Under the pieces are notes generated by a model. That model saw nothing but the letters and a program-made list of their open reading frames with translations, searched no databases and had not been told where the DNA came from. Of a stretch of 20,321 nt of DNA, positions 3,248-17,220 are shown piece by piece. Position 1 is the stretch's first letter; every line of letters begins with the position of its first letter. Source of the DNA: a virus. The translations under genes were made by a program, and so were the position numbers. The DNA is taken from positions 1 through 20,321 of IMG/VR virus record IMGVR_UViG_3300014306_000018; one strand, written 5' to 3'.

Positions 3248-3321
3248 TGGCAAGCCCACTAGGATTCGAACCTAGATCTTCCGGGTTGGAGCCGGAAATC
3301 CTACCGTTGAACGACGGACTC
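3248..3321 (-). tRNA. tRNA-Trp(CCA)
   Basis: Cloverleaf read on the minus strand: acceptor GAGTCCG with TGGGCTT (all pairs, three G-U), discriminator G, encoded CCA. Anticodon stem TCCGG/CCGGA, loop CTCCAAC, anticodon CCA. T-loop TTCGAAT. Last gene of the array transcript. Confidence 0.9.
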
Positions 3322-3323
3322 AC

Positions 3324-3398
3324 TGGTACCCTCGAGAGGATTCGAACCTCCACCCGAACGCTTAGGGGGCGCTTGCTCGTCCATTGAGCTTCGAGGGT
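3324..3398 (-). tRNA. tRNA-Arg(CCT)
   Basis: Acceptor ACCCTCG/CGAGGGT, D-stem GCTC/GAGC, anticodon stem AGCGC/GCGTT, loop CCCCTAA, anticodon CCT reading AGG, encoded CCA. Odd point: position 33 is C rather than the nearly universal U. Confidence 0.85.
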
Positions 3399-3399
3399 A

Positions 3400-3485
3400 T
3401 GGCGGAGCCTGCACGGACTCGAACCTGCACGGGTGTTACCCCTTCACTGTTTTCAAGACAGCTAACCGCACCTATGGGAGGCTCC
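3400..3485 (-). tRNA. tRNA-Ser(TGA)
   Basis: Acceptor GGAGCCT/AGGCTCC, discriminator G, CCA. Anticodon loop CTTGAAA with TGA. A long variable arm (AAGGGGTAACACCC) marks it as class II, as expected for Ser. Confidence 0.9.
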
Positions 3486-3489
3486 GTAT

Positions 3490-3565
3490 TGGCACCCCTA
3501 CGGGGATTCGAACCCCGGTCGCCAGGCTGAGAACCTGGCATCCTAGACCACTAGACGATAGGGAC
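3490..3565 (-). tRNA. tRNA-Glu(CTC)
   Basis: Anticodon stem CCAGG/CCTGG, loop TTCTCAG, anticodon CTC; T-loop TTCGAAT; acceptor GTCCCTA/TAGGGGT, discriminator G, CCA. D-arm is typical of tRNA-Glu. Confidence 0.92.
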
Positions 3566-3567
3566 AC

Positions 3568-3641
3568 TGGCGGTGCTGAAGGGGATCGAACCCTCTCCAA
3601 CTGTTAGACAGACAGACGTGCGGCCACTACACCACAGCACC
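3568..3641 (-). tRNA. tRNA-Asp(GTC)
   Basis: Acceptor starts GGTGCTG and the 3' end is CAGCACCG-CCA. Anticodon loop CTGTCTA, anticodon GTC. The outermost anticodon-stem pair (27-43) is a T-T mismatch. T-loop TTCGATC. Confidence 0.88.
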
Positions 3642-3642
3642 G

Positions 3643-3730
3643 TGGCGGAAGGACAAGGGATCGAACCTTGGCAGGCTTTCACCTGACTGCCGGTTAGCAA
3701 CCGGGTGCCTTACCTCTCGGCCAGCCTTCC
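3643..3730 (-). tRNA. tRNA-Ser(GCT)
   Basis: Anticodon loop TTGCTAA, anticodon GCT. Long variable arm with a GCAGGC-type stem confirms class II. Acceptor GGAAGGC/TCCTTCC (last pair mismatched), discriminator G, CCA. Confidence 0.9.
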
Positions 3731-3737
3731 GCGTATG

Positions 3738-3814
3738 TGGTAGCCCTCCCCGGATTCGAACCGGGATCCTTCCCGTCTTGAGCGGGACGCCTCTGCCAGT
3801 TGGGCTAGAGGGCT
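3738..3814 (-). tRNA. tRNA-Leu(CAA) on a class I body
   Basis: Anticodon stem TCCCG/CGGGA, loop CTCAAGA, anticodon CAA reading TTG. Acceptor AGCCCTC/GAGGGCT, discriminator A, CCA. The variable loop is only AGGAT (5 nt), although bacterial tRNA-Leu normally has a long variable arm. The assignment rests on the anticodon; see findings. Confidence 0.82.
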
Positions 3815-3815
3815 T

Positions 3816-3890
3816 TGGTGCCGCCAGTCCGATTTGCACGGACACTGACCGGGCTTCAACCGGGCGTGCTACTGCTGACACTACAGCGGC
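3816..3890 (-). tRNA. tRNA-Phe(GAA)
   Basis: Acceptor GCCGCTG/TGGCGGC, discriminator A, CCA. Anticodon loop TTGAAGC, anticodon GAA. The T-loop is TGCAAAT, so position 55 is G instead of the usual T (pseudouridine). Confidence 0.88.
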
Positions 3891-3892
3891 GT

Positions 3893-3969
3893 TGGTGGGG
3901 CAAGTGAGATTCGAACTCACACTGGGCGGATTCTGACTCCGCTTCCTCTACCAGTTGGGATACAGCCCC
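3893..3969 (-). tRNA. tRNA-Leu(CAG) on a class I body
   Basis: Anticodon stem GCGGA/TCCGC, loop GTCAGAA, anticodon CAG reading CTG. Acceptor GGGGCTG/TTGCCCC with one T-T mismatch, discriminator A, CCA. Short 5-nt variable loop, unusual for Leu. Confidence 0.82.
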
Positions 3970-3970
3970 T

Positions 3971-4046
3971 TGGGGTAATCGCTGGGACTCGAACCCAGTT
4001 ACCGGGAGTCACAATCCCGTGCCGCAACCCGTTTGGCTTCGACCAC
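3971..4046 (-). tRNA. tRNA-His(GTG)
   Basis: Acceptor GTGGTCG/CGATTAC, with the His hallmarks discriminator C73 and a G at position -1 (4047). Anticodon loop TTGTGAC, anticodon GTG. Encoded CCA. Confidence 0.92.
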
Positions 4047-4048
4047 CA

Positions 4049-4119
4049 TGGAGCCCCTGCTAGGAGTCGAACCTAGACCATCTGCTTACAAGGCAGACGC
4101 TCTTCCCAAGAACGAGGGC
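4049..4119 (-). tRNA. tRNA-Thr(TGT) with shortened D-arm
   Basis: Acceptor GCCCTCG/CAGGGGC, discriminator T, CCA. Anticodon stem TCTGC/GCAGA, loop CTTGTAA, anticodon TGT. Only 15 nt separate the acceptor and anticodon stems (TTCTTGGGAAGAGCG), forming a TCTT/AAGA stem with a GGG triloop. Same design as tRNA-Thr(CGT) at 4277. Confidence 0.82.
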
Positions 4120-4120
4120 T

Positions 4121-4197
4121 TGGCACCGCGTGCCGGATTCGAACCGGCGTCGTCGGGATTGAAAGTCCCGCATCCTGGACCACTAGACGAACGCGAC
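4121..4197 (-). tRNA. tRNA-Glu(TTC)
   Basis: Anticodon stem CGGGA/TCCCG, loop CTTTCAA, anticodon TTC. Acceptor GTCGCGT/ACGCGGT, discriminator G, CCA. D-arm like that of the other Glu tRNA. Confidence 0.92.
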
Positions 4198-4198
4198 T

Positions 4199-4275
4199 TG
4201 GTACTCCTGGGAGGACTCGAACCCCCGGCGCGCTGGGTGTAAACCAGCCGTTCTAGCCGCTGAAACTACAGGAGT
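4199..4275 (-). tRNA. tRNA-Val(TAC)
   Basis: Acceptor ACTCCTG/CAGGAGT, discriminator A, CCA. Anticodon stem GCTGG/CCAGC, loop TTTACAC, anticodon TAC. D-arm GTTTCAGCGGCTAGAAC is normal. Confidence 0.92.
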
Positions 4276-4276
4276 A

Positions 4277-4347
4277 TGGAGCTCCAGCAGGGAGTCGAAC
4301 CCTGAGATGCTGATTACGAAACAGCAGCCCGACCATCGGACAAGAGC
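4277..4347 (-). tRNA. tRNA-Thr(CGT) with shortened D-arm
   Basis: Acceptor GCTCTTG/CTGGAGC, discriminator T, CCA. Loop TTCGTAA, anticodon CGT; the innermost anticodon-stem pair is T-T. Only 15 nt lie between the acceptor and anticodon stems, forming CCGA/TCGG with a TGG triloop. Confidence 0.8.
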
Positions 4348-4348
4348 T

Positions 4349-4422
4349 TGGCTGGCACGCCTGGATTCGAACCAGGCCCGGATGGTTAACAGCCAACCGT
4401 GCTACCGCTACACCACACGCCA
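4349..4422 (-). tRNA. tRNA-Asn(GTT)
   Basis: Acceptor TGGCGTG/CGTGCCA, discriminator G, CCA. Anticodon loop CTGTTAA, anticodon GTT. One T-T mismatch in the anticodon stem (GTTGG/CCATC). T-loop TTCGAAT. Confidence 0.88.
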
Positions 4423-4429
4423 GTGCATT

Positions 4430-4514
4430 TGGTAGGTCCGGAGGGAGTCGAACCCTCAATCCGCATGGGCAACAGCCTCTCAGACTGCCGTGTATACCAT
4501 TCCACCACGGACCT
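4430..4514 (-). tRNA. tRNA-Leu(GAG)
   Basis: Acceptor AGGTCCG/CGGACCT, discriminator A, CCA. Anticodon loop CTGAGAG, anticodon GAG reading CTC. Long variable arm (TGCCCATGCGGAT), the normal class II form for Leu, in contrast with the two other Leu genes here. Confidence 0.9.
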
Positions 4515-4515
4515 A

Positions 4516-4591
4516 TGGTTGCAGCCGGGGGAGTCGAACCCCAAGAGGAGGGGTATGAACCCTCCGTGATCTCCGGACCATAACGACTGCG
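4516..4591 (-). tRNA. tRNA-Met(CAT), initiator-like
   Basis: Anticodon loop TTCATAC, anticodon CAT. Acceptor CGCAGTC/GGCTGCA pairs at six positions and leaves a C1-A72 mismatch, a hallmark of bacterial initiator tRNA. The anticodon stem GAGGG/CCCTC has the three consecutive G-C pairs also typical of initiators. Discriminator A, CCA. The D-arm fits the standard pattern poorly, so an elongator or Ile2 role is not fully excluded. Confidence 0.85.
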
Positions 4592-4592
4592 A

Positions 4593-4666
4593 TGGAGCCT
4601 CACCAGGGAGTCGAACCCTGCCTGCCTCAATACCAATGAGACGTGCTGCCGCAACACTTGAAAGGC
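4593..4666 (-). tRNA. tRNA-Thr(GGT)
   Basis: Acceptor GCCTTTC/GTGAGGC (one T-T mismatch), discriminator T, CCA. Anticodon stem TCTCA/TGAGG, loop TTGGTAT, anticodon GGT. The D-arm is of nearly normal length, unlike the other two Thr genes. Confidence 0.88.
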
Positions 4667-4668
4667 GT

Positions 4669-4744
4669 TGGTACTGCGACTGGGAATCGAACCCAGACCT
4701 CCACCTTGGCAAGGTGGCATCCTGGCCGTTGAGACGACCGCAGT
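4669..4744 (-). tRNA. tRNA-Gly(GCC)
   Basis: Acceptor ACTGCGG/TCGCAGT, discriminator A, CCA. Anticodon stem CCACC/GGTGG, loop TTGCCAA, anticodon GCC. Confidence 0.92.
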
Positions 4745-4745
4745 A

Positions 4746-4820
4746 TGGAGAGTCCGGTGGGACTTGAACCCACAACTGAGAGGGTAAGAACCTCCCGGTT
4801 TACCGTTAGCCTACGGACCC
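4746..4820 (-). tRNA. tRNA-Lys(CTT)
   Basis: Acceptor GGGTCCG/CGGACTC, discriminator T, CCA. Anticodon loop TTCTTAC, anticodon CTT reading AAG. T-loop TTCAAGT. Confidence 0.9.
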
Positions 4821-4821
4821 T

Positions 4822-4897
4822 TGGTAGGGAGAGTGAGAGTCGAACTCACGACTACGTGCTTCCAAGGCACGTCGGTTGGCCGCTACCGTACCTCCCT
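4822..4897 (-). tRNA. tRNA-Pro(TGG)
   Basis: Acceptor AGGGAGG/TCTCCCT, discriminator A, CCA. Anticodon stem CGTGC/GCACG, loop CTTGGAA, anticodon TGG. Confidence 0.92.
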
Positions 4898-4898
4898 A

Positions 4899-4974
4899 TG
4901 GCACCCACTGAGGGAATCGAACCCCCGTTCTCTTGGTTCGAAGCCAAGCGCCTTCTCCACTAGACCAAGTGGGT
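4899..4974 (-). tRNA. tRNA-Arg(TCG)
   Basis: Acceptor ACCCACT/AGTGGGT, fully paired, discriminator G, CCA. Anticodon stem CTTGG/CCAAG, loop CTTCGAA, anticodon TCG reading CGA. Confidence 0.92.
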
Positions 4975-4977
4975 GTG

Positions 4978-5051
4978 TGGAAGCCTCGGTGGGACTCGCA
5001 CCCACTTCAGCCGGGTTGCAGCCGGCACCTTCGACTCTTCAGATCGAGGCT
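4978..5051 (-). tRNA. tRNA-Cys(GCA)
   Basis: Acceptor AGCCTCG/CGAGGCT, discriminator T (a Cys identity base), CCA. Anticodon stem GCCGG/CCGGC, loop CTGCAAC, anticodon GCA. T-loop TGCGAGT has G at position 55, as in the Phe gene. Confidence 0.88.
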
Positions 5052-5052
5052 A

Positions 5053-5128
5053 TGGTGGACCCCCAGGGACTCGAACCCTGACCTTCCTGCTTGCAAGGCA
5101 AGTGTGCTTCCGTTACAACCAGAGGCCC
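5053..5128 (-). tRNA. tRNA-Ala(TGC)
   Basis: Anticodon loop CTTGCAA, anticodon TGC. Acceptor GGGCCTC/GGGGTCC, discriminator A, CCA. The base pair 3-70 is G-T (G3-U70), the universal Ala identity element. Confidence 0.93.
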
Positions 5129-5133
5129 AAGAT

Positions 5134-5157
5134 GTAACTCCACCAGTGGCGAGTTAC
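5134..5157. repeat. 7-bp hairpin in the only long spacer of the tRNA array
   Basis: GTAACTC (5134-5140) and GAGTTAC (5151-5157) form a perfect dyad with a 10-nt loop. It lies in the 34-nt spacer between tRNA-Gly(TCC) and tRNA-Ala(TGC), while other spacers are 1-7 nt. It may be a processing or attenuation element, or the scar of a lost gene. Confidence 0.45.
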
Positions 5158-5162
5158 GTATT

Positions 5163-5239
5163 TGGTACTCCGTGAGGGACTCGAACCCTCAACTTCTGCT
5201 TGGAAGGCAGACGTGTTAGCCGTTGGACACCAACGGAGT
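5163..5239 (-). tRNA. tRNA-Gly(TCC)
   Basis: Acceptor ACTCCGT/ACGGAGT, discriminator A, CCA. Anticodon stem TCTGC/GCAGA, loop CTTCCAA, anticodon TCC. Confidence 0.92.
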
Positions 5240-5240
5240 T

Positions 5241-5314
5241 TGGCACACCCCCAAGGATTCGAACCTCGATCTGATGGTTCAGAGCCACCTGTCCTGCCCT
5301 TGAACGAGGGGTGT
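5241..5314 (-). tRNA. tRNA-Gln(CTG)
   Basis: Acceptor ACACCCC/GGGGTGT, discriminator G, CCA. Anticodon stem GGTGG/CCATC, loop CTCTGAA, anticodon CTG reading CAG. Confidence 0.92.
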
Positions 5315-5315
5315 G

Positions 5316-5390
5316 TGGCACCTACGGAAGGAATCGAACCTTCATCTGCGGCTTCGCAGTCCGTCACTCTCTCCATTGAGCTACGTAGGT
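5316..5390 (-). tRNA. tRNA-Arg(GCG), weak anticodon stem
   Basis: Acceptor ACCTACG/CGTAGGT, discriminator G, CCA. D-stem GCTC/GAGT. Loop CTGCGAA, anticodon GCG reading CGC/CGT. The anticodon stem ACGGA/GCCGC has only three central pairs, with A-C and A-G mismatches at the ends. Bacteria normally read this box with ACG (inosine), so a GCG anticodon is odd. It may be a decaying gene. Confidence 0.75.
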
Positions 5391-5391
5391 A

Positions 5392-5476
5392 TGGTGGGTG
5401 CAGAGGGATTTGAACCCCCACAGCCGTTAGACCACTGGTTTACAGCCAGCTCCCCTGACCCATGAGGTCTACACCC
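5392..5476 (-). tRNA. tRNA-Tyr(GTA)
   Basis: Acceptor GGGTGTA/TGCACCC, discriminator A, CCA. Anticodon loop CTGTAAA, anticodon GTA. Long variable arm (TGGTCTAACGGCTG), as expected for bacterial Tyr. Confidence 0.92.
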
Positions 5477-5479
5477 ATC

Positions 5480-5556
5480 TGGTAGCCCACCTGAGAGTCG
5501 AACTCAGCGATACCACGTTATCAGCGTGGCCCCGTCAACCGGCTGGGTCGCGGGCT
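5480..5556 (-). tRNA. tRNA-Ile(GAT)
   Basis: Acceptor AGCCCGC/GTGGGCT, discriminator A, CCA. Anticodon stem CCACG/CGTGG, loop CTGATAA, anticodon GAT. First gene of the leftward tRNA transcript, about 100 nt from the candidate promoter at 5664-5672. Confidence 0.92.
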
Positions 5557-11772: not shown

Positions 11773-12030
11773 GTGGGCAAGCTTGCTGACGCGATCGCCT
11801 CATCTGTCGTCAAGAAGGGTCCCGTCTGTGATACGGGGAATCTCATCGACGTCATGGACCAGGAGGACGCAGCGGACCTTATCGCTGCACTCAAGGACAA
11901 GGGGATCGCAGCGACCATCATCCAGGCCAAGCTCGACGAGTTCGGCTATCAGGTAGGAGTGACGTCTCTCCGAAGGCATAGGAACCGTCTTCTTGGCAAG
12001 GGGGATGCCTGCTCATGCGACGTCGCCTGA
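11773..12030 (+). CDS. HTH-like DNA-binding protein, 85 aa
   Basis: Start GTG 11773, with a GGGGGAG close upstream. The C-terminal half (IQAKLDEFGYQVGVTSLRRH, then RNRLLG) looks like a helix-turn-helix in which the second helix TSLRRHRNR would contact DNA. It has one Cys near the start (GPVCDTGN) and a CSCDVA end. Similar small HTH proteins occur next to terminase/portal genes in actinophages. The DNA-binding role is inference from pattern. It overlaps the metallophosphoesterase by 16 nt. Confidence 0.7.
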   Translation: MGKLADAIASSVVKKGPVCDTGNLIDVMDQEDAADLIAALKDKGIAATIIQAKLDEFGYQVGVTSLRRHRNRLLGKGDACSCDVA

Positions 12031-12953
12031 AGGATGCCATCAATGAGGCACAGGCTGAGAGGGAGGGCCGTGACCCTCTCGTTCTAGAGCTCGAGCGGAC
12101 AGCGCAGGAACTCTGGAACTCCGGGGTCGACTTCAGGGTCCAGAACGGACAGGTCTACCTTGGTGAGCGTGCCGCAGAACACGAGGCGACGATCGACCTC
12201 GGTACCACTAACAGGATGAAGTTGGGCATCGTCTCTGACACCCACTTCGGCTCTCGGTTCGAGCAGTTGTCTGCCCTCAAGGACTTCTACCGCATCGCGG
12301 AGGAAGAAGGGGTAGACGCATTCATCCACGCTGGTGACTTGGTGCAAGGAACGCCGAAGATGCACAGGGGGATGGAGCATGAGGTCCATCTGCACTCTGC
12401 TGACGGCCAGATCAACTACACCATCGACGTATACCCAGAGAGCGACATCCCGACGTACTTCATCACCGGGAATCACGACGACTCGTTCATCAACGAGTCT
12501 GGGACGAACCCGGTACGAGCAGTCACGAACGCTCGACCGGAGTTCCACTACGTGGGCCAGGATGCCTCGTATCTCAACATCGATGGGCTGCGCATCTACG
12601 TCGTCCACCCATCTGGTGGACTGAGTTACGCCAAGTCCTACCGACCGCAGAAGATCACCGAAGCCATCCCCATCGACAAGCGCACCCACATCGTCATCAT
12701 CGGCCACTACCATACGTATGGCGTGTTCAAGGTGCAGGAGACGATCGCCGTGATGGAGCCCTGCTTCCAGGGCAGTTACCCATGGCTCATCCGCAAGGGC
12801 CTGTATCCGACCATCGGTGGCCATATCATGGACATCGAATACGACGACGACAGGATCACGAGGATCTCACACACGCTTGTCGACTATCCAGAGAAGGAAG
12901 ACGACTTTGACACGCTCGCCAGTTCGCGCTGGCAGCGACCTGGGGCTGTGTAG
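12015..12953 (+). CDS. Calcineurin-like metallophosphoesterase, 312 aa
   Basis: All five signature blocks are visible: GIVSDTHFG (Asp75, His77), HAGDLVQG (Asp108), TGNHDD (Asn153, His154), VVHPSGG (His198) and IGHYHT (His231, His233). These bind two metals and hydrolyse phosphate mono- or diesters, possibly DNA or nucleotides. An N-terminal 65-residue helical extension (LKDAINEAQAEREGRDPLVL) precedes the catalytic domain. The start is ATG 12015, overlapping the HTH gene, so the two are coupled. Substrate unknown. A terminator follows at 13044. Confidence 0.9.
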   Translation: MRRRLKDAINEAQAEREGRDPLVLELERTAQELWNSGVDFRVQNGQVYLGERAAEHEATIDLGTTNRMKLGIVSDTHFGSRFEQLSALKDFYRIAEEEGVDAFIHAGDLVQGTPKMHRGMEHEVHLHSADGQINYTIDVYPESDIPTYFITGNHDDSFINESGTNPVRAVTNARPEFHYVGQDASYLNIDGLRIYVVHPSGGLSYAKSYRPQKITEAIPIDKRTHIVIIGHYHTYGVFKVQETIAVMEPCFQGSYPWLIRKGLYPTIGGHIMDIEYDDDRITRISHTLVDYPEKEDDFDTLASSRWQRPGAV

Positions 12954-13043
12954 ACGACCGCTAAGTGTTCATTCTCAGACCGAGATTGAACGCTTACGGA
13001 TACACGGAGTGCGACTCTCCGTCAGCTCCACCAGCATTCACCC

Positions 13044-13083
13044 AGCCCCGGAGGAAGCGCCCACCCCTCCGGGGCTTTCCTGT
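13044..13083 (+). terminator. Intrinsic terminator after the metallophosphoesterase gene
   Basis: AGCCCCGGAGG (13044-13054) and CCTCCGGGGCT (13066-13076) form a perfect 11-bp stem with an 11-nt loop, followed by TTTCCTGT. It lies 91 nt after the stop codon; the stretch between (12954-13043) shows only a small ACGGAG/CTCCGT hairpin and no supportable gene. Confidence 0.85.
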
Positions 13084-13087
13084 ACTA
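13082..13087 (+). promoter_or_regulatory. Candidate -10 element for a leaderless transcript
   Basis: TACTAT fits the TAnnnT pattern and ends 7 nt before the ATG at 13095, so transcription would begin at or next to the start codon. There is no Shine-Dalgarno sequence before that ATG. No clear -35 was found. Confidence 0.35.
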
Positions 13088-13094
13088 TCCGGCC

Positions 13095-13763
13095 ATGTCA
13101 CTCATCGTTGTCACGCCATCGCGTGGTCGACCACAGAAGGCTCTAGAGTCGTACGAGAAGTTCTTGGAGTACAAGAGCCTCGAGGACACGAAGATGGTGT
13201 TCGTCGTAGACAAGGACGACGATACGTTCGACGAGTACGTCAAGACCATGGTCCCGATCGTCTCGTATGACCACTCAGGCGGTGGGATGGGGCCACCCAT
13301 GAACGCAGCCGCAGCCGACCTGGCTCCGATGTATGAAATCGTGGGGTTTCTCGGTGATGACCACCGATTTCGCACACGATATTTTGACGAGCAGATCGAG
13401 ACGGCACTCGCGGGTGGTGGGTTCGCCTATGGCAACGACCTCGCACGCAAGGACATCCCGACACAGGTCTTCATCACCAGCGACATCATCCAGGCCCTCG
13501 GCTACTTCTGCCTTCCGGGTGCATACCACCTGTACCTTGACAACACGTGGGCTGACCTTGGGAATGGCGCTGAGTGCCTCTACTACCTCCCCGACACCAT
13601 CATCGAGCATGCCCACGCGTTCTATGGCAAGGCGCAGATGGACGAGGGATACGAGCGCGTCAATCACCCGAGCATGTACCAGCATGACGCGCAGATCTAC
13701 CGCAAGTGGGTAGAGTCAGGTCAACGGGAACGAGACATCGAAACAGTGAGGAAGTGCCTCTAA
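13095..13763 (+). CDS. Glycosyltransferase-like protein (GT-A fold), 222 aa
   Basis: The N-terminus SLIVVTPSRGRPQKALES is the first strand and loop of a family 2-type glycosyltransferase. VGFLGDDHRFRTRYFDEQI (83-101) supplies a DxD-like acidic pair for a metal and nucleotide sugar. FAYGNDL and LPGAYHLYLDNTWADLG resemble later catalytic segments. No membrane segment, so a soluble cytoplasmic enzyme. First gene of the sugar cluster; no ribosome binding site, possibly leaderless. Its TAA overlaps the ATG of the methyltransferase (TAATG). Donor and acceptor unknown. Confidence 0.8.
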   Translation: MSLIVVTPSRGRPQKALESYEKFLEYKSLEDTKMVFVVDKDDDTFDEYVKTMVPIVSYDHSGGGMGPPMNAAAADLAPMYEIVGFLGDDHRFRTRYFDEQIETALAGGGFAYGNDLARKDIPTQVFITSDIIQALGYFCLPGAYHLYLDNTWADLGNGAECLYYLPDTIIEHAHAFYGKAQMDEGYERVNHPSMYQHDAQIYRKWVESGQRERDIETVRKCL

Positions 13764-14368
13764 TGGCGAAGATGACGGTAAGGCAGACCTTCGACGAGAT
13801 CTACCGAGAGAATAGGTGGAACGGGACAGACTCAAGGTCGAACGGCCCAGGCGGGACCGTATACGCGAGGAGGTTCGTCGCCCCAGCCATCGCTGACCTC
13901 GTCAGCAACCTTGGCGTCACGTCCGTGCTTGATGTCGGGTGTGGAGAGACATACTGGCAGCCGGAACTCCCCGGTTACATCGGGATCGACGTCAGCAGTG
14001 TCGCCATCGAGGCAGCGAAGGAGCGTCATCCAGACTGGGACATCCGCCTCTGGTCCCCGAATGATGAGCTGCCGGTCGCGGAGTTCGTCATCCTGCGGCA
14101 CGTCCTCCAGCACATGACTCCGAGTTCCGGAAAGACCCTCGTCGAGCGAATCAAGGACATGGGGGCTGCATATCTCGCGGCCACGACATACGACAACGGC
14201 GACAACGGGGCCGGGTTCGAGCGTCCGATCGTCGAGGGTGGTGGCTATTGGCCAGACCTTCGAGTCGAGCCATTCGGGCTGGGAGAGCCGTCCGTTTCCA
14301 TCGAGGACGCAGCCAACCCCAGGCCGAAGCAGATGGGTGGTCGACTGGGCGTGTGGACCTTGCTGTGA
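13763..14368 (+). CDS. Class I SAM-dependent methyltransferase, 201 aa
   Basis: Motif I VLDVGCGETYW (55-65) and the following GIDVSSVAIEAAK (74-86) form the S-adenosylmethionine site; FVILRHVLQHM (108-118) is the usual motif IV region. GAGFERPIVEGGGYWPDLRV near the end may be part of the acceptor site. Nothing points to DNA methylation (no DPPY/NPPY motif). Lying between a glycosyltransferase and a sugar epimerase, it may methylate a sugar or its carrier; this is inference from context. The ATG 13763 overlaps the upstream stop and has GAGGAAG 8 nt before it. Confidence 0.85.
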   Translation: MAKMTVRQTFDEIYRENRWNGTDSRSNGPGGTVYARRFVAPAIADLVSNLGVTSVLDVGCGETYWQPELPGYIGIDVSSVAIEAAKERHPDWDIRLWSPNDELPVAEFVILRHVLQHMTPSSGKTLVERIKDMGAAYLAATTYDNGDNGAGFERPIVEGGGYWPDLRVEPFGLGEPSVSIEDAANPRPKQMGGRLGVWTLL

Positions 14369-15279
14369 ACGTCCTTATCACCGGAGCCGCTGGGTTCCTC
14401 GGAAGGCACTTCACGAAGTTCCACATGGACAAGGGAGACAAGGTTCTAGCGGTCGATAACATGTCGAGTCCGTACGCCGTCTACGAGACGTGGGTCACGG
14501 AACTCGATGTCCGTGACCTCGTAGAGGAATACACCGCAGACGCGTTCGACCGCATCTACCACTTCGCGGCCCTCGTCGGTGGGCGAGAGAAGATCGAGAT
14601 GGACCCGCTCTTCAATGCGGACTCGCTCGAGCTCGACTCCATCTTCTTCAGGTGGTGCGCCGCAGACCCTCCGATGGGTCCGGTCGTCTATCCGTCGTCA
14701 TCGGCTGTCTACGGCGTCCGACACCAGGGCGTTGACGGTGAATCACTCGACGAGCATCTCTTTCACCCGTCTCAACTTCGCTGGGACTCCCCAGACGAGG
14801 TCTATGGGTTCGCGAAGATGGCGGGCGAGTTCTTGGCCATGAAGGCAGCGGGATACGGGGTGCACACACTGTGTATCCGTCCGTTCAGCGGCTACGGCGA
14901 AGACCAGAGCATGGAATACCCGTTCCCATCGATCGCACGACGCGTCAAGCGACGTGAGGACCCGTTGCTCATCTGGGGGCATGGCGAACAGGTCCGTGAC
15001 TTCGTCCATGTCGACGATATCGTCGGGGCGACCGATGCGAGGCTCAATGGGACGCTTCGCGGGTATGACTCGATGAATATCGGCACTGGTATCGGCACGA
15101 ACTTCCTCGACCTTGCGTCACAGATGGCATTCATCGCCGGATACGCCCCGAACATCGAAACGATGCCAGACAAGCCGATCGGCGTCCTTCACCGTGTCGC
15201 TGACGTGACCAACATGTTCGACTACTACATCCCACAGGTCACACTCGAGATGGGCATCAGGAGGGCCCTGGGTGAGTGA
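14365..15279 (+). CDS. NAD-dependent sugar epimerase/dehydratase (extended SDR), 304 aa
   Basis: Acts on nucleotide sugars. GAAGFLG (7-13) is the GxxGxxG dinucleotide-binding loop, AVDN (29-32) contacts the cofactor ribose, YPSSSAVYG (109-117) carries the catalytic Ser, and YGFAK (147-151) is the YxxxK pair. RPFSGYGEDQ is the usual substrate-binding segment. The length is normal for the family (around 310). GTG 14365 overlaps the methyltransferase stop. It probably makes the donor sugar for the neighbouring glycosyltransferases; the precise sugar cannot be told. Confidence 0.92.
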   Translation: MNVLITGAAGFLGRHFTKFHMDKGDKVLAVDNMSSPYAVYETWVTELDVRDLVEEYTADAFDRIYHFAALVGGREKIEMDPLFNADSLELDSIFFRWCAADPPMGPVVYPSSSAVYGVRHQGVDGESLDEHLFHPSQLRWDSPDEVYGFAKMAGEFLAMKAAGYGVHTLCIRPFSGYGEDQSMEYPFPSIARRVKRREDPLLIWGHGEQVRDFVHVDDIVGATDARLNGTLRGYDSMNIGTGIGTNFLDLASQMAFIAGYAPNIETMPDKPIGVLHRVADVTNMFDYYIPQVTLEMGIRRALGE

Positions 15280-16060
15280 AACGAGCGGCTTTTCGCTCCC
15301 TCTAGAGGACGCGATCGAACTCTCAGGGCTTCCGTACCCACCATATGAGCCGCATCGCGATATCACGTTCGCCATCGTCGTCTGGAATGATGCGGGCCGG
15401 CTGGATGCTCTCTTGCGTCATGTAAGGCCACACTTCGAGACGCTGGCCGTCGTCGTCCAGGAATCGCCGGATGACACGCTCCAAGTCGCCCGAAACTTGG
15501 CCGATATCGTCATGATCGACAACTGGCGTGGATATGGCGACAAGTCCTTCGGGCCGATCCTCCTTCCGCAGATCTCTACGCGATGGACCTTCAAGTGTGA
15601 TGCGGACGAGTGGCCCGACCAAGAGTTGCTCGATTCGCTCCATCTTGCGAGGTGGGATGCCCAGCGGAGGGGCATCAAGGGAGTGTGGGTGCGCTTCAGG
15701 TCGTGGATCGAGGACAACGAGTACGAAGAGCAGCACTCTCATCTTCGCCTCTTCGAAACAGAGGTCGGATGGCCAAGCACACTGCACTCGCGCCCACCGG
15801 TCGACAACGGCATCATCTGGACATCTGGCCACATCCACCACAGGCGTTCTCTTGACGAGATGATCCTCGACTACCTGAGTTACTACCGGGTGGGCAAGGG
15901 AAATGTCGGATGGGACGCCCACAACAAGTTGATGATGCGCTCCGCAACGAGTGGCGTTGCGAAGAGCAAGGGATGGTCGTACGTGAAGTCGTACGCATGG
16001 TGGCCAGATGTCTTGGCTATCGCGTACGATGGCGTGGACCCGGAGAACATGACCGGCTAG
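15272..16060 (+). CDS. Glycosyltransferase family 2-like protein, 262 aa
   Basis: After a 30-residue extension, ITFAIVVWNDAGRLDALLRH (31-50) gives the first strand and helix of a GT-A domain. FKCDADEWPDQELL (107-120) holds the DxD metal site (Asp110, Asp112). The WPSTLHSRPP segment is found in many GT2 enzymes that act on glycans. No membrane segment. GTG 15272 has AGGAGG about 7 nt upstream and overlaps the epimerase by 8 nt. The donor is likely the sugar made by that epimerase (inference). Confidence 0.85.
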   Translation: MSETSGFSLPLEDAIELSGLPYPPYEPHRDITFAIVVWNDAGRLDALLRHVRPHFETLAVVVQESPDDTLQVARNLADIVMIDNWRGYGDKSFGPILLPQISTRWTFKCDADEWPDQELLDSLHLARWDAQRRGIKGVWVRFRSWIEDNEYEEQHSHLRLFETEVGWPSTLHSRPPVDNGIIWTSGHIHHRRSLDEMILDYLSYYRVGKGNVGWDAHNKLMMRSATSGVAKSKGWSYVKSYAWWPDVLAIAYDGVDPENMTG

Positions 16061-16068
16061 GATAACTG

Positions 16069-16085
16069 CTGGCCATAGTGGCCAG
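16069..16085 (+). promoter_or_regulatory. Hairpin directly before the Shine-Dalgarno of the small structural gene
   Basis: CTGGCC (16069-16074) and GGCCAG (16080-16085) form a perfect 6-bp stem with a 5-nt loop, ending where the AGAAGGAG ribosome binding site begins. It may stabilise the mRNA 5' end or tune expression of the next gene; no T-run, so not a typical terminator. Confidence 0.4.
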
Positions 16086-16096
16086 AAGGAGAACCA

Positions 16097-16396
16097 ATGG
16101 CAACCGTTACCATCCGGTACGAGGATGACACCTCGAACCCAGTGGCGACCCTCACTGCCGTTCACATCAACGCCAACTCTGTCGACGGTGTGGATGAGAC
16201 GACGAATGCAGAGGTTCGCTACTACCTGAGTGCAGAGTGCACTGGCCAGGACACCGCAAAGTCACCGCAGTTCAGCGGCGACTTCGAGTGGGACGGATGG
16301 GTCTTTCCCGCAGCGGGAAGCTGGACCCTCCATCTTCGCCAGGTATCTGATGACTCGTCAGTAGCCGACCTCGCAGTGACCGTGGACGCCGCTTAG
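16097..16396 (+). CDS. Small structural-type protein, 99 aa
   Basis: ATG 16097 with AGAAGGAG 5-6 nt upstream, a strong site fitting high expression. The product is beta-rich and acidic (ATVTIRYEDDTSNPVATLTA; SWTLHLRQVSDDSSVADLAV), reading like an Ig-like or decoration-type domain. Its start resembles the 11223 protein (both begin with a MVAT/MATVT beta strand), but overall similarity was not established. It lies within the sugar cluster, which suggests it may be a substrate of the neighbouring enzymes or co-expressed with the virion genes. Confidence 0.7.
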   Translation: MATVTIRYEDDTSNPVATLTAVHINANSVDGVDETTNAEVRYYLSAECTGQDTAKSPQFSGDFEWDGWVFPAAGSWTLHLRQVSDDSSVADLAVTVDAA

Positions 16397-16422
16397 GGAT
16401 CACTCCCGGCTACAGGAGAAGA

Positions 16423-17220
16423 ATGGGCGAACTCAACGTCCTCTCTCGGTCAGAACGACCGATCGGAACCATCGCTACCCTGTATCAGGGGATGGTCGCA
16501 GGCGAGACACTTGTTTCCTATATGCGGATGGACACCACGTTCGCCCGTGGGCGCGACCCCGACGTCTTGTACGTCAAGGGGTCGCAAGTCCCTGCCCAGC
16601 GTAATGCCGCAGTCCACCGGATGCGTGGCGACTGGCTCATCTTCATCGACTCCGATATGGAGTTCGAGCCCGACTCCGTCAAGCGCTTGGTAATCTCCTA
16701 CGAGGTACTGAGGGCTAAGGTCGAAGGACCGGTCATCTTGGGTGGGTTGTGCGTTCGAAGGTATCCACCGTACCAGCCGACGATGTTCAGGGCGGTGGAC
16801 ATGAACGACGGCCCATTTCGCGTGATCGAGGAGTGGGGTGATGTTGACTACGTCGAGTGTGACGCGACGGGAATGGCGTTCGTCCTCATCGAGCGAGCTG
16901 CATTCGAGGCCATCATGGGTGGCCCGATGCCAGAACTCGAAGAGCGGACGCAGCTCCATCCTTGGCCCTACTTCGAGTGGATCGGTCAGATGGGCGAAGA
17001 CCTTCGCTTCTGCCTCAAGGCCAGGGCCGCAGGAGTACGGGTCTTCGTCGACCCCTCCATCAGTATCGGTCACGTGAGCCAAGTGGTCGTCGACGTCAAT
17101 GACTTCTGGCGACACATGGCGACCAGGGATGAGAAGTCGTTCTCTGACAACAAGACCGTGAACGACCACTTCGGCCTTCCAACGCTGACACGAGAGAAGG
17201 CTGTTGAACTCCTCGGTTGA
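16423..17220 (+). CDS. Glycosyltransferase family 2 protein, 265 aa
   Basis: QVPAQRNAAVHRMRGDWLIF (55-74) followed by IDSDMEFEPDSV (75-86) is a textbook GT2 core with the DxD motif (Asp76, Asp78). CDATGMAFVLIER and MGEDLRFCLKARAAG supply the acceptor-side and catalytic acidic residues (ED), and IGHVS is the typical end of the domain. No membrane segment. The start at ATG 16423 has ACAGGAGA upstream. It follows the small structural gene and overlaps the next gene by 17 nt. Confidence 0.92.
   Translation: MGELNVLSRSERPIGTIATLYQGMVAGETLVSYMRMDTTFARGRDPDVLYVKGSQVPAQRNAAVHRMRGDWLIFIDSDMEFEPDSVKRLVISYEVLRAKVEGPVILGGLCVRRYPPYQPTMFRAVDMNDGPFRVIEEWGDVDYVECDATGMAFVLIERAAFEAIMGGPMPELEERTQLHPWPYFEWIGQMGEDLRFCLKARAAGVRVFVDPSISIGHVSQVVVDVNDFWRHMATRDEKSFSDNKTVNDHFGLPTLTREKAVELLG

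Follow-up and report, generated by a model that had tools for sequence, protein, structure and literature searches.

Leucine tRNAs are charged in ways that set them apart from the other tRNAs with a long variable arm. The sections of PMC9976931 on Escherichia coli tRNA-Leu give A73, the A15-U48 pair, G18G19 and A20a as its essential elements, the long arm and the anticodon not being crucial for charging; variants lacking both the arm and the anticodon arm were still active, and neither the sequence nor the folding of the arm correlated with charging. The same sections contrast tRNA-Leu, for which the arm is of low importance, with tRNA-Ser, whose main identity element is the size of the arm, and describe human mitochondrial tRNA-Leu(UUR), which LeuRS charges without a long arm via A73 and A14. 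Within the literature searched, one short-loop bacterial Leu gene is already in print: a single sentence of PMC6582537, offering no identity analysis, mentions a cluster-encoded short-loop tRNA-Leu(TAG) in the mycobacteria Mmuc and Mpho, and passing remarks in PMC2265525 and PMC2474678 concede short arms to some Leu, Ser and Tyr tRNAs. We found no paper on phage-wide or mycobacterial arm-less tRNA-Leu in the open PMC literature, which holds few subscription journals.

Here, we analyzed two tRNA-Leu genes with short variable loops, located in a 20,321-base virus record (the whole stretch of DNA analyzed, hereafter the window), and examined their counterparts in phages and in cellular genomes. 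Arm-less tRNA-Leu is a widespread, little-noticed type in many phages and in mycobacteria. Within the literature searched, three aspects appear to have gone unremarked: how common the type is among phages, the role it has in Mycobacterium, and how it contrasts with tRNA-Ser and tRNA-Tyr.

Two short-loop tRNA-Leu genes in a viral tRNA array

The window contains a terminase and a portal gene. A megablast of the whole window against phage records gave zero matches, and the terminase matched 529 records, every homologue being below 60% identity. Genes for a calcineurin-like phosphoesterase, a nucleotide-sugar epimerase and a glycosyltransferase lie at 12015-17220 of this phage fragment. The tRNA array (Table 1) totals 29 tRNAs once Ser(UGA), Thr(CGU) and Cys(GCA) are counted. 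Its tRNA-Phe gene, at 3816-3890, is structurally odd, being devoid of the usual G18G19 and having TGCAA in the T loop.

Table 1. Features of the window discussed in this work
Feature	Position	Strand	Description	Basis
tRNA-Leu(CAA)	3738-3814	minus	arm-less (class I); reads UUG	ARAGORN, Rfam RF00005, numbering
tRNA-Leu(CAG)	3893-3969	minus	arm-less (class I); reads CUG	ARAGORN, Rfam RF00005, numbering
tRNA-Leu(GAG)	4430-4514	minus	ordinary class II; internal comparison	ARAGORN, numbering
tRNA array	3248-5556	minus	includes the three Leu genes	26 ARAGORN genes, 3 read by eye
Ser(UGA)	3400-3487	minus	in a gap of the array	read by eye; missed by ARAGORN
Thr(CGU)	4277-4347	minus		read by eye; missed by ARAGORN; Infernal 24.4 bits
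Cys(GCA)	4978-5051	minus		read by eye; missed by ARAGORN; Infernal 34.3 bits

A sequence-only reading of the window had reported 5-nt variable loops in Leu(CAA) and Leu(CAG) and a long arm in the third Leu gene. The short loops are confirmed by ARAGORN, Rfam RF00005 (55.4 bits for Leu(CAA) and 45.9 for Leu(CAG), with a cut-off of 29) and tRNA numbering, and the long arm by numbering. The variable region as numbered is 5 nt long in both Leu(CAA) (AGGAT) and Leu(CAG) (CCAGT), below the 10 nt from which a variable arm counts as class II, and 14 nt long in Leu(GAG). All stems of Leu(CAA) are paired (acceptor 7/7, anticodon 5/5, T 5/5), as are those of Leu(CAG) (6/7, 5/5 and 5/5) apart from a single T.T mismatch in the acceptor stem, and both genes encode CCA.

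An allo-tRNA cloverleaf, in which the acceptor and T stems have 8 and 4 bp (8/4) or 9 and 3 bp (9/3), was excluded, since both genes have a 7-bp acceptor stem and a 5-bp T stem. The names 8/4 and 9/3 follow the usage in PMC7609411.

Leucine determinants in the tRNA core

A14, the A15:U48 trans-Levitt pair, G18G19, A20a and A73 are all present in Leu(CAA) and in Leu(CAG). Both short genes hence display the features of bacterial tRNA-Leu, namely A73, A15-U48, G18G19, A20a and a Leu anticodon, a set that is E. coli's and may not hold for the host of this phage. Among the 26 numbered tRNAs of the window, the combination of A14, A15:U48, A20a and A73 (hereafter the four determinants) occurs only in the three Leu genes, Leu(GAG) having the same four as the short ones. 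The 13.22 pair is C13.A22 in Leu(CAA) and Leu(CAG) and G13.A22 in Leu(GAG).

Distribution among phages

Two viral scans unrelated to leucine, with at least 120 loci analyzed in the first and 118 of the 120 in the second, and neither being a random draw, provided 603 distinct numbered tRNAs from the first and 70 more from the second (five of them Leu, two of these short) among the matches listed. When the two are pooled, the variable loop is short in 23/51 Leu, 0/39 Ser and 0/22 Tyr tRNAs among the matches listed, one of the 39 listed Ser having a 9-nt variable region; the corresponding Fisher P of 4e-10 for Leu versus Ser plus Tyr is a guide only, related phages not being independent. Short tRNA-Ser and tRNA-Tyr are therefore absent from both unselected samples. 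The four determinants are united in 20 of the 23 short Leu tRNAs and in three of the 511 other class I tRNAs of these listed matches. Loss of the arm in Leu and its retention in Ser agree with the low and high importance, respectively, attributed to it in the sections of PMC9976931 cited above.

Viral contigs were also scanned for the D-arm of the window genes with the anticodon left unconstrained (at least 120 loci, not a random draw), which returned at least 127 matches. A Leu triplet occupies the anticodon place in 118 of the matches listed. Among the 127 listed, the leucine anticodons are TAG (41), CAA (33), TAA (29), CAG (9), GAG (4) and AAG (2), and the non-Leu triplets GTG (3) and others (6). 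ARAGORN called a tRNA at 118 of these 127, of which 115 were Leu and three His; the nine listed matches without a call consist of three with a Leu triplet and six without. The D-arm loci listed contain 157 distinct short Leu genes, 140 of them with all four determinants, and both window genes have the CCCAAYTGGYAGAGG-type D-arm with C13.A22. The core is conserved in these phages and associated with leucine anticodons.

The three tRNA-His genes (at loci L037, L054 and L113) are alike and combine a D-arm of the arm-less Leu type with what reads by eye as C73, as though the discriminator of a body of this type had changed; judging from these sequences, an anticodon shift between Leu and His is possible. 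Among the matches listed of this D-arm-selected sample, two of 50 Ser and one of 25 Tyr entries are short. With structure scores of only 13, both Ser entries are probably errors of numbering or isotype calling; the Tyr entry, a tRNA-Tyr(GTA) with a 6-nt variable loop and a structure score of 27 (L079), is an exception to the retention of the arm in phage tRNA-Tyr.

Leucine tRNAs usually have the reverse of what the window shows at position 37, where G37 stands beside CAA and A37 beside CAG. In the short viral Leu genes among the D-arm matches listed, A37 accompanies CAG in 9/10 and TAG in 24/48, and G37 accompanies CAA in 2/48. This odd position could lower decoding quality in the window genes, and may alter their modification and nuclease sensitivity.

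When 180 distinct class I Leu genes from viruses are compared, pairing holds in 2956 of 3060 stem cells, and nearly every stem position is filled by several pair types, up to six. We hence rejected chance or pseudogenes as an explanation; chance is further excluded by the recurrence of the same form in many unrelated phages and in mycobacterial genomes.

Among named phages, we examined the tRNA neighborhoods of 14, which were chosen because they matched: they hold 25 class I and six class II Leu genes, 23 Ser and seven Tyr genes, with not a single class I member in the latter two isotypes. The hosts of these phages are E. coli, Klebsiella, Cronobacter, Erwinia, Pectobacterium, Pseudomonas syringae, Enterococcus, Prochlorococcus, Streptomyces, Microbacterium and Mycobacterium, and one of the 14 is a crAss-like phage. 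Arm-less Leu genes occur in wV8 (TAG, CAA, TAA), BeanWater (CAG, GAG, CAA), Prophecy (CAA, AAG, TAA), Pumpernickel (CAG, CAA, GAG), and also in CR8, PE09, POP15 and others. As numbered, one or two determinants are missing from Pumpernickel CAG, BeanWater CAA and CR8 TAG; for P-RSM6 and CCS1, the ARAGORN prediction seems to add a 5' base, so that position 14 is misread. Streptomyces phage JimJam has two Leu(TAG) genes, one class II and one arm-less (5001-5082 and 5391-5465 of locus L003), with an HNH endonuclease gene between them. In Shigella phage Sf14, Leu TAG, CAA and TAA have loops of 5, 6 and 7 nt, respectively, and all four determinants; the isotype scores given for them in PMC12482277 place Leu first by tRNAscan-SE (67.4, 49.1 and 60.2, respectively), the word "variable" being absent from the main text of that paper.

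Isotype profiles of the tRNA bodies

Profiles were computed as position-weight models, and the first Leu profile was derived solely from phage genes of class II, 49 in number. With this class II Leu profile in the comparison, Leu(CAA) scored best as Ile (-4.3) and Leu(CAG) as Tyr (-1.0), followed by Leu (-7.4), none of the models fitting either gene well. The class II Leu profile put Leu first for 74/180 viral class I Leu genes versus 1/201 non-Leu controls, and for 16/23 class I genes from the unselected scans, 5/14 from named phages and 2/4 from hosts. A class I Leu profile built on the 180 genes called both window genes Leu, at +16.7 for Leu(CAA) and +14.9 for Leu(CAG), scores that are partly circular when unmasked because the training genes were partly D-arm-selected; it called Leu for 159/180 of its own genes in leave-one-out mode and for 0/201 controls.

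With the D-arm masked, the class I Leu profile still called 126/180, and the window genes came out as Ile (4.7) over Leu (2.4) for Leu(CAA), and as Lys (1.0), class II Leu (0.6) and class I Leu (-0.2) for Leu(CAG). On the question raised from sequence, whether body and anticodon disagree, the bodies score as Leu by the class I profile, and weakly as Ile or Lys once the D-arm is masked. As masking removes the leucine advantage, it is mainly the tRNA core that carries the leucine signal of both genes, which is what recognition of the core and A73 by LeuRS would predict. Outside the core, the bodies would be compatible too with an ancient change of anticodon in a different class I tRNA.

Occurrence in cellular genomes

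Bacterial and archaeal genomes were scanned with a pattern that favors 6-nt variable loops and shows existence rather than frequency. Of its 100 matches, 74 have anticodon TAA, and many stand alone, with no second tRNA in the surrounding 8 kb of an actinobacterial genome. In Mycobacterium sp. ENV421, where all 49 Infernal tRNA places were considered, the CAA gene and both TAA genes are class I, whereas the readers found to be class II are Leu GAG, TAG and CAG; none of the 49 places holds a class II gene for UUR. In Knoellia sinensis, the roughly 30 of 45 places that were read include a class I Leu(TAA) and four other Leu genes that are class II.

Extending the search to 60 genomes from the same genus as ENV421, we found the class I Leu(UAA/CAA) pattern in 59, that is in nearly all Mycobacterium sampled, with at least two matches per genome in 48 of the 59. 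A class II Leu pattern gave 135 matches in the same 60 genomes, two of them with a UUR anticodon; it usually finds two of the expected CUN genes per genome and hence misses some, so an unseen class II UUR gene is possible. The arm-less form is most likely what Mycobacterium itself uses to read UUR. Its presence in ENV421 and in 59/60 Mycobacterium genomes led us to reject a phage-only form. The earlier suggestion of a phage-specific Leu form is supported as to leucine and not as to phage specificity, Mycobacterium and some other Actinobacteria having such tRNAs of their own.

The exact pattern misses other D-loop lengths, and all counts, the 59/60 of Mycobacterium included, are lower bounds. 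At the level of phyla, each named after its seed record, these are at least 34/396 genomes in Actinomycetota and at least 5/146 in Cyanobacteriota (seed included), against 1/398 in Pseudomonadota and 1/398 in the phylum of Butyrivibrio, the single genome in each case being the seed picked for its match (a Granulosicoccaceae in Pseudomonadota). GTDB splits the old Firmicutes, so the Butyrivibrio phylum is maybe only a part of them and allows no firm statement on the hosts of Enterococcus phages. With an E threshold of 0.001, the Leu(TAG) gene of phage wV8 had no match among 5,426 genomes of E. coli; it matched in 270 phage records, some over partial length. Phages of enteric bacteria and Pseudomonas seem to carry a form that is absent or rare in their hosts. 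Five cyanobacterial loci (L131, L133, L147, L152 and L175) harbor 24-33 ARAGORN tRNAs in at most 8 kb, arm-less Leu included.

Origin of the arm-less phage tRNA-Leu

A single origin, whereby the class I Leu(UUR) of Actinobacteria would be the ancestor of the arm-less phage Leu tRNAs, which would then have spread between phages by transfer, concerns ancestry and is compatible with their being genuine leucine tRNAs. It would explain why C13.A22 and the same D-arm are shared by Mycobacterium and most phage genes among the D-arm matches listed, and why the class I pattern reaches at least 34/396 genomes in Actinomycetota while being confined to the seed in Pseudomonadota and the Butyrivibrio phylum (398 genomes each). 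However, the 13.22 pair of short Leu genes varies among the unselected matches listed (GA 9, CA 6, AA 5, TC 2, TA 1), and when the phage genes are pooled, the 11 of the GA type resemble class II Leu more closely (mean 0.597) than they do the CA type (0.553). Together, the varied 13.22 pair and the proximity of the GA type to class II suggest that phage Leu tRNAs lost the arm more than once, and we consider the single origin rather doubtful.

Charging, decoding and alternative explanations

We consider Leu(CAA) and Leu(CAG) to be genuine leucine tRNAs without the long arm, charged by the host LeuRS via the core and decoding UUG and CUG, with a probability of about 0.85. Carriage of leucine is most likely because the other charging features are kept and because the type is common to many phages and mycobacteria. 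The host LeuRS would recognize both tRNAs through A73 and the core (A14, the A15:U48 Levitt pair, G18G19 and A20a), requiring neither the arm nor the anticodon; once charged with leucine, they would decode UUG and CUG, codons in use by the phage (40 TTG and 55 CTG among the 3648 codons of 11 reading frames), and enlarge the leucine tRNA pool during infection.

One competing explanation develops the sequence-only reading, which saw in the two genes possible class I tRNAs recoded from another isotype that could be mischarged. Bodies of, for instance, Ile or Lys tRNAs would then still be charged by their former synthetase, and a residue other than leucine would enter at UUG and CUG. The ordinary class I length of the variable regions fits this view, as do the weak resemblances to Ile (CAA) and Lys (CAG) outside the D-arm; an ancestry in another isotype is where that proposal keeps some ground. 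As to present function, it conflicts with the core determinants, their combination being so rare (3/511) in the other class I phage tRNAs listed, and with the 115 Leu among the 118 ARAGORN calls at the D-arm matches listed. It also conflicts with codon use in an alignment of the terminase, a limited test in that it sets one protein against eight distant homologues: Leu stands opposite CTG in 30/95 aligned residues, opposite TTG in 17/32 and opposite the other Leu codons of the phage in 46/176, being the commonest residue for all of them alike, and this alignment of one protein and eight distant homologues shows no sign of reassignment of CUG or UUG. Finally, the same form provides UUR readers in Mycobacterium, where miscoding of UUR would be hardly tolerable. 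On the strength of the codon alignment, the core determinants and the mycobacterial precedent, we rejected mischarging with another amino acid, and we hold an anticodon shift with wrong insertion to be highly improbable. Both genes probably encode true leucine tRNAs that are not mischarged and not peculiar to phages.

Poorly charged tRNAs or decoys, such as bait for host tRNA nucleases or toxins, could also be envisioned from the odd position 37 of both genes and the T.T mismatch in the acceptor stem of Leu(CAG), in line with the evasion of tRNA-targeting defense proposed for phage tRNAs in a passage of PMC10264068. Against this stand the well-paired stems of the 180 viral class I Leu genes (2956/3060 cells) and the conservation of the entire charging core, which a decoy would not need, making this explanation very improbable. 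A more speculative extension of the genuine-leucine-tRNA reading, which we think improbable, is that phages repeatedly, and almost solely in Leu, drop the arm since LeuRS tolerates its loss, under selection for hiding the leucine supply from toxins or nucleases that grip the arm. If true, phage translation would continue while the class II tRNAs of the host are disabled.

The textbook rule that bacterial tRNA-Leu is class II fails for 23/51 phage Leu tRNAs of the unselected matches listed and for the UUR readers of Mycobacterium. For genome annotation, this means that arm-less Leu genes can pass for tRNAs of the wrong isotype. They also offer ready-made short leucine tRNAs for tests of arm-directed toxins. 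Like SerRS, TyrRS needs the long arm. The arm-less form provides a natural experiment on synthetase identity, in which the arm is lost where LeuRS is reportedly indifferent to it and kept where SerRS needs it, following the account in sections of PMC9976931.

Comparison with known systems

The arm-less Leu genes of named phages have the same structure as those of the window, and all four determinants in most cases; the Leu(CAG) of Microbacterium phage Magritte is 0.841 identical to the body of the window CAA gene. Among cellular counterparts, the class I Leu(UAA/CAA) of Mycobacterium resembles the window genes in its short loop and, where numbered, in C13.A22, A14, A15:U48, A20a and A73, and some other Actinobacteria have a class I Leu(UAA) of the same type. 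The Leu(CAA) of Mycobacterium sp. ENV421 is 0.762 identical to the window CAG gene over the 63 positions compared; the class I Leu of ENV421 serves UUR only, whereas that of the window phage serves UUG and CUG. The Leu(TAG) of Mmuc and Mpho, as briefly described in PMC6582537, shares with the window genes a Leu anticodon, a short loop and its location in a tRNA gene cluster, and differs by its TAG anticodon. Canonical bacterial class II tRNA-Leu has A73, A15:U48, A20a, G18G19 and a Leu anticodon in common with the window genes, but differs from them by the long arm and, commonly, by G13.A22 (13 of 25 numbered genes, and 7/7 host genes). Human mitochondrial tRNA-Leu(UUR) combines an organellar synthetase with an organellar tRNA, and its likeness to the window genes does not imply common descent.
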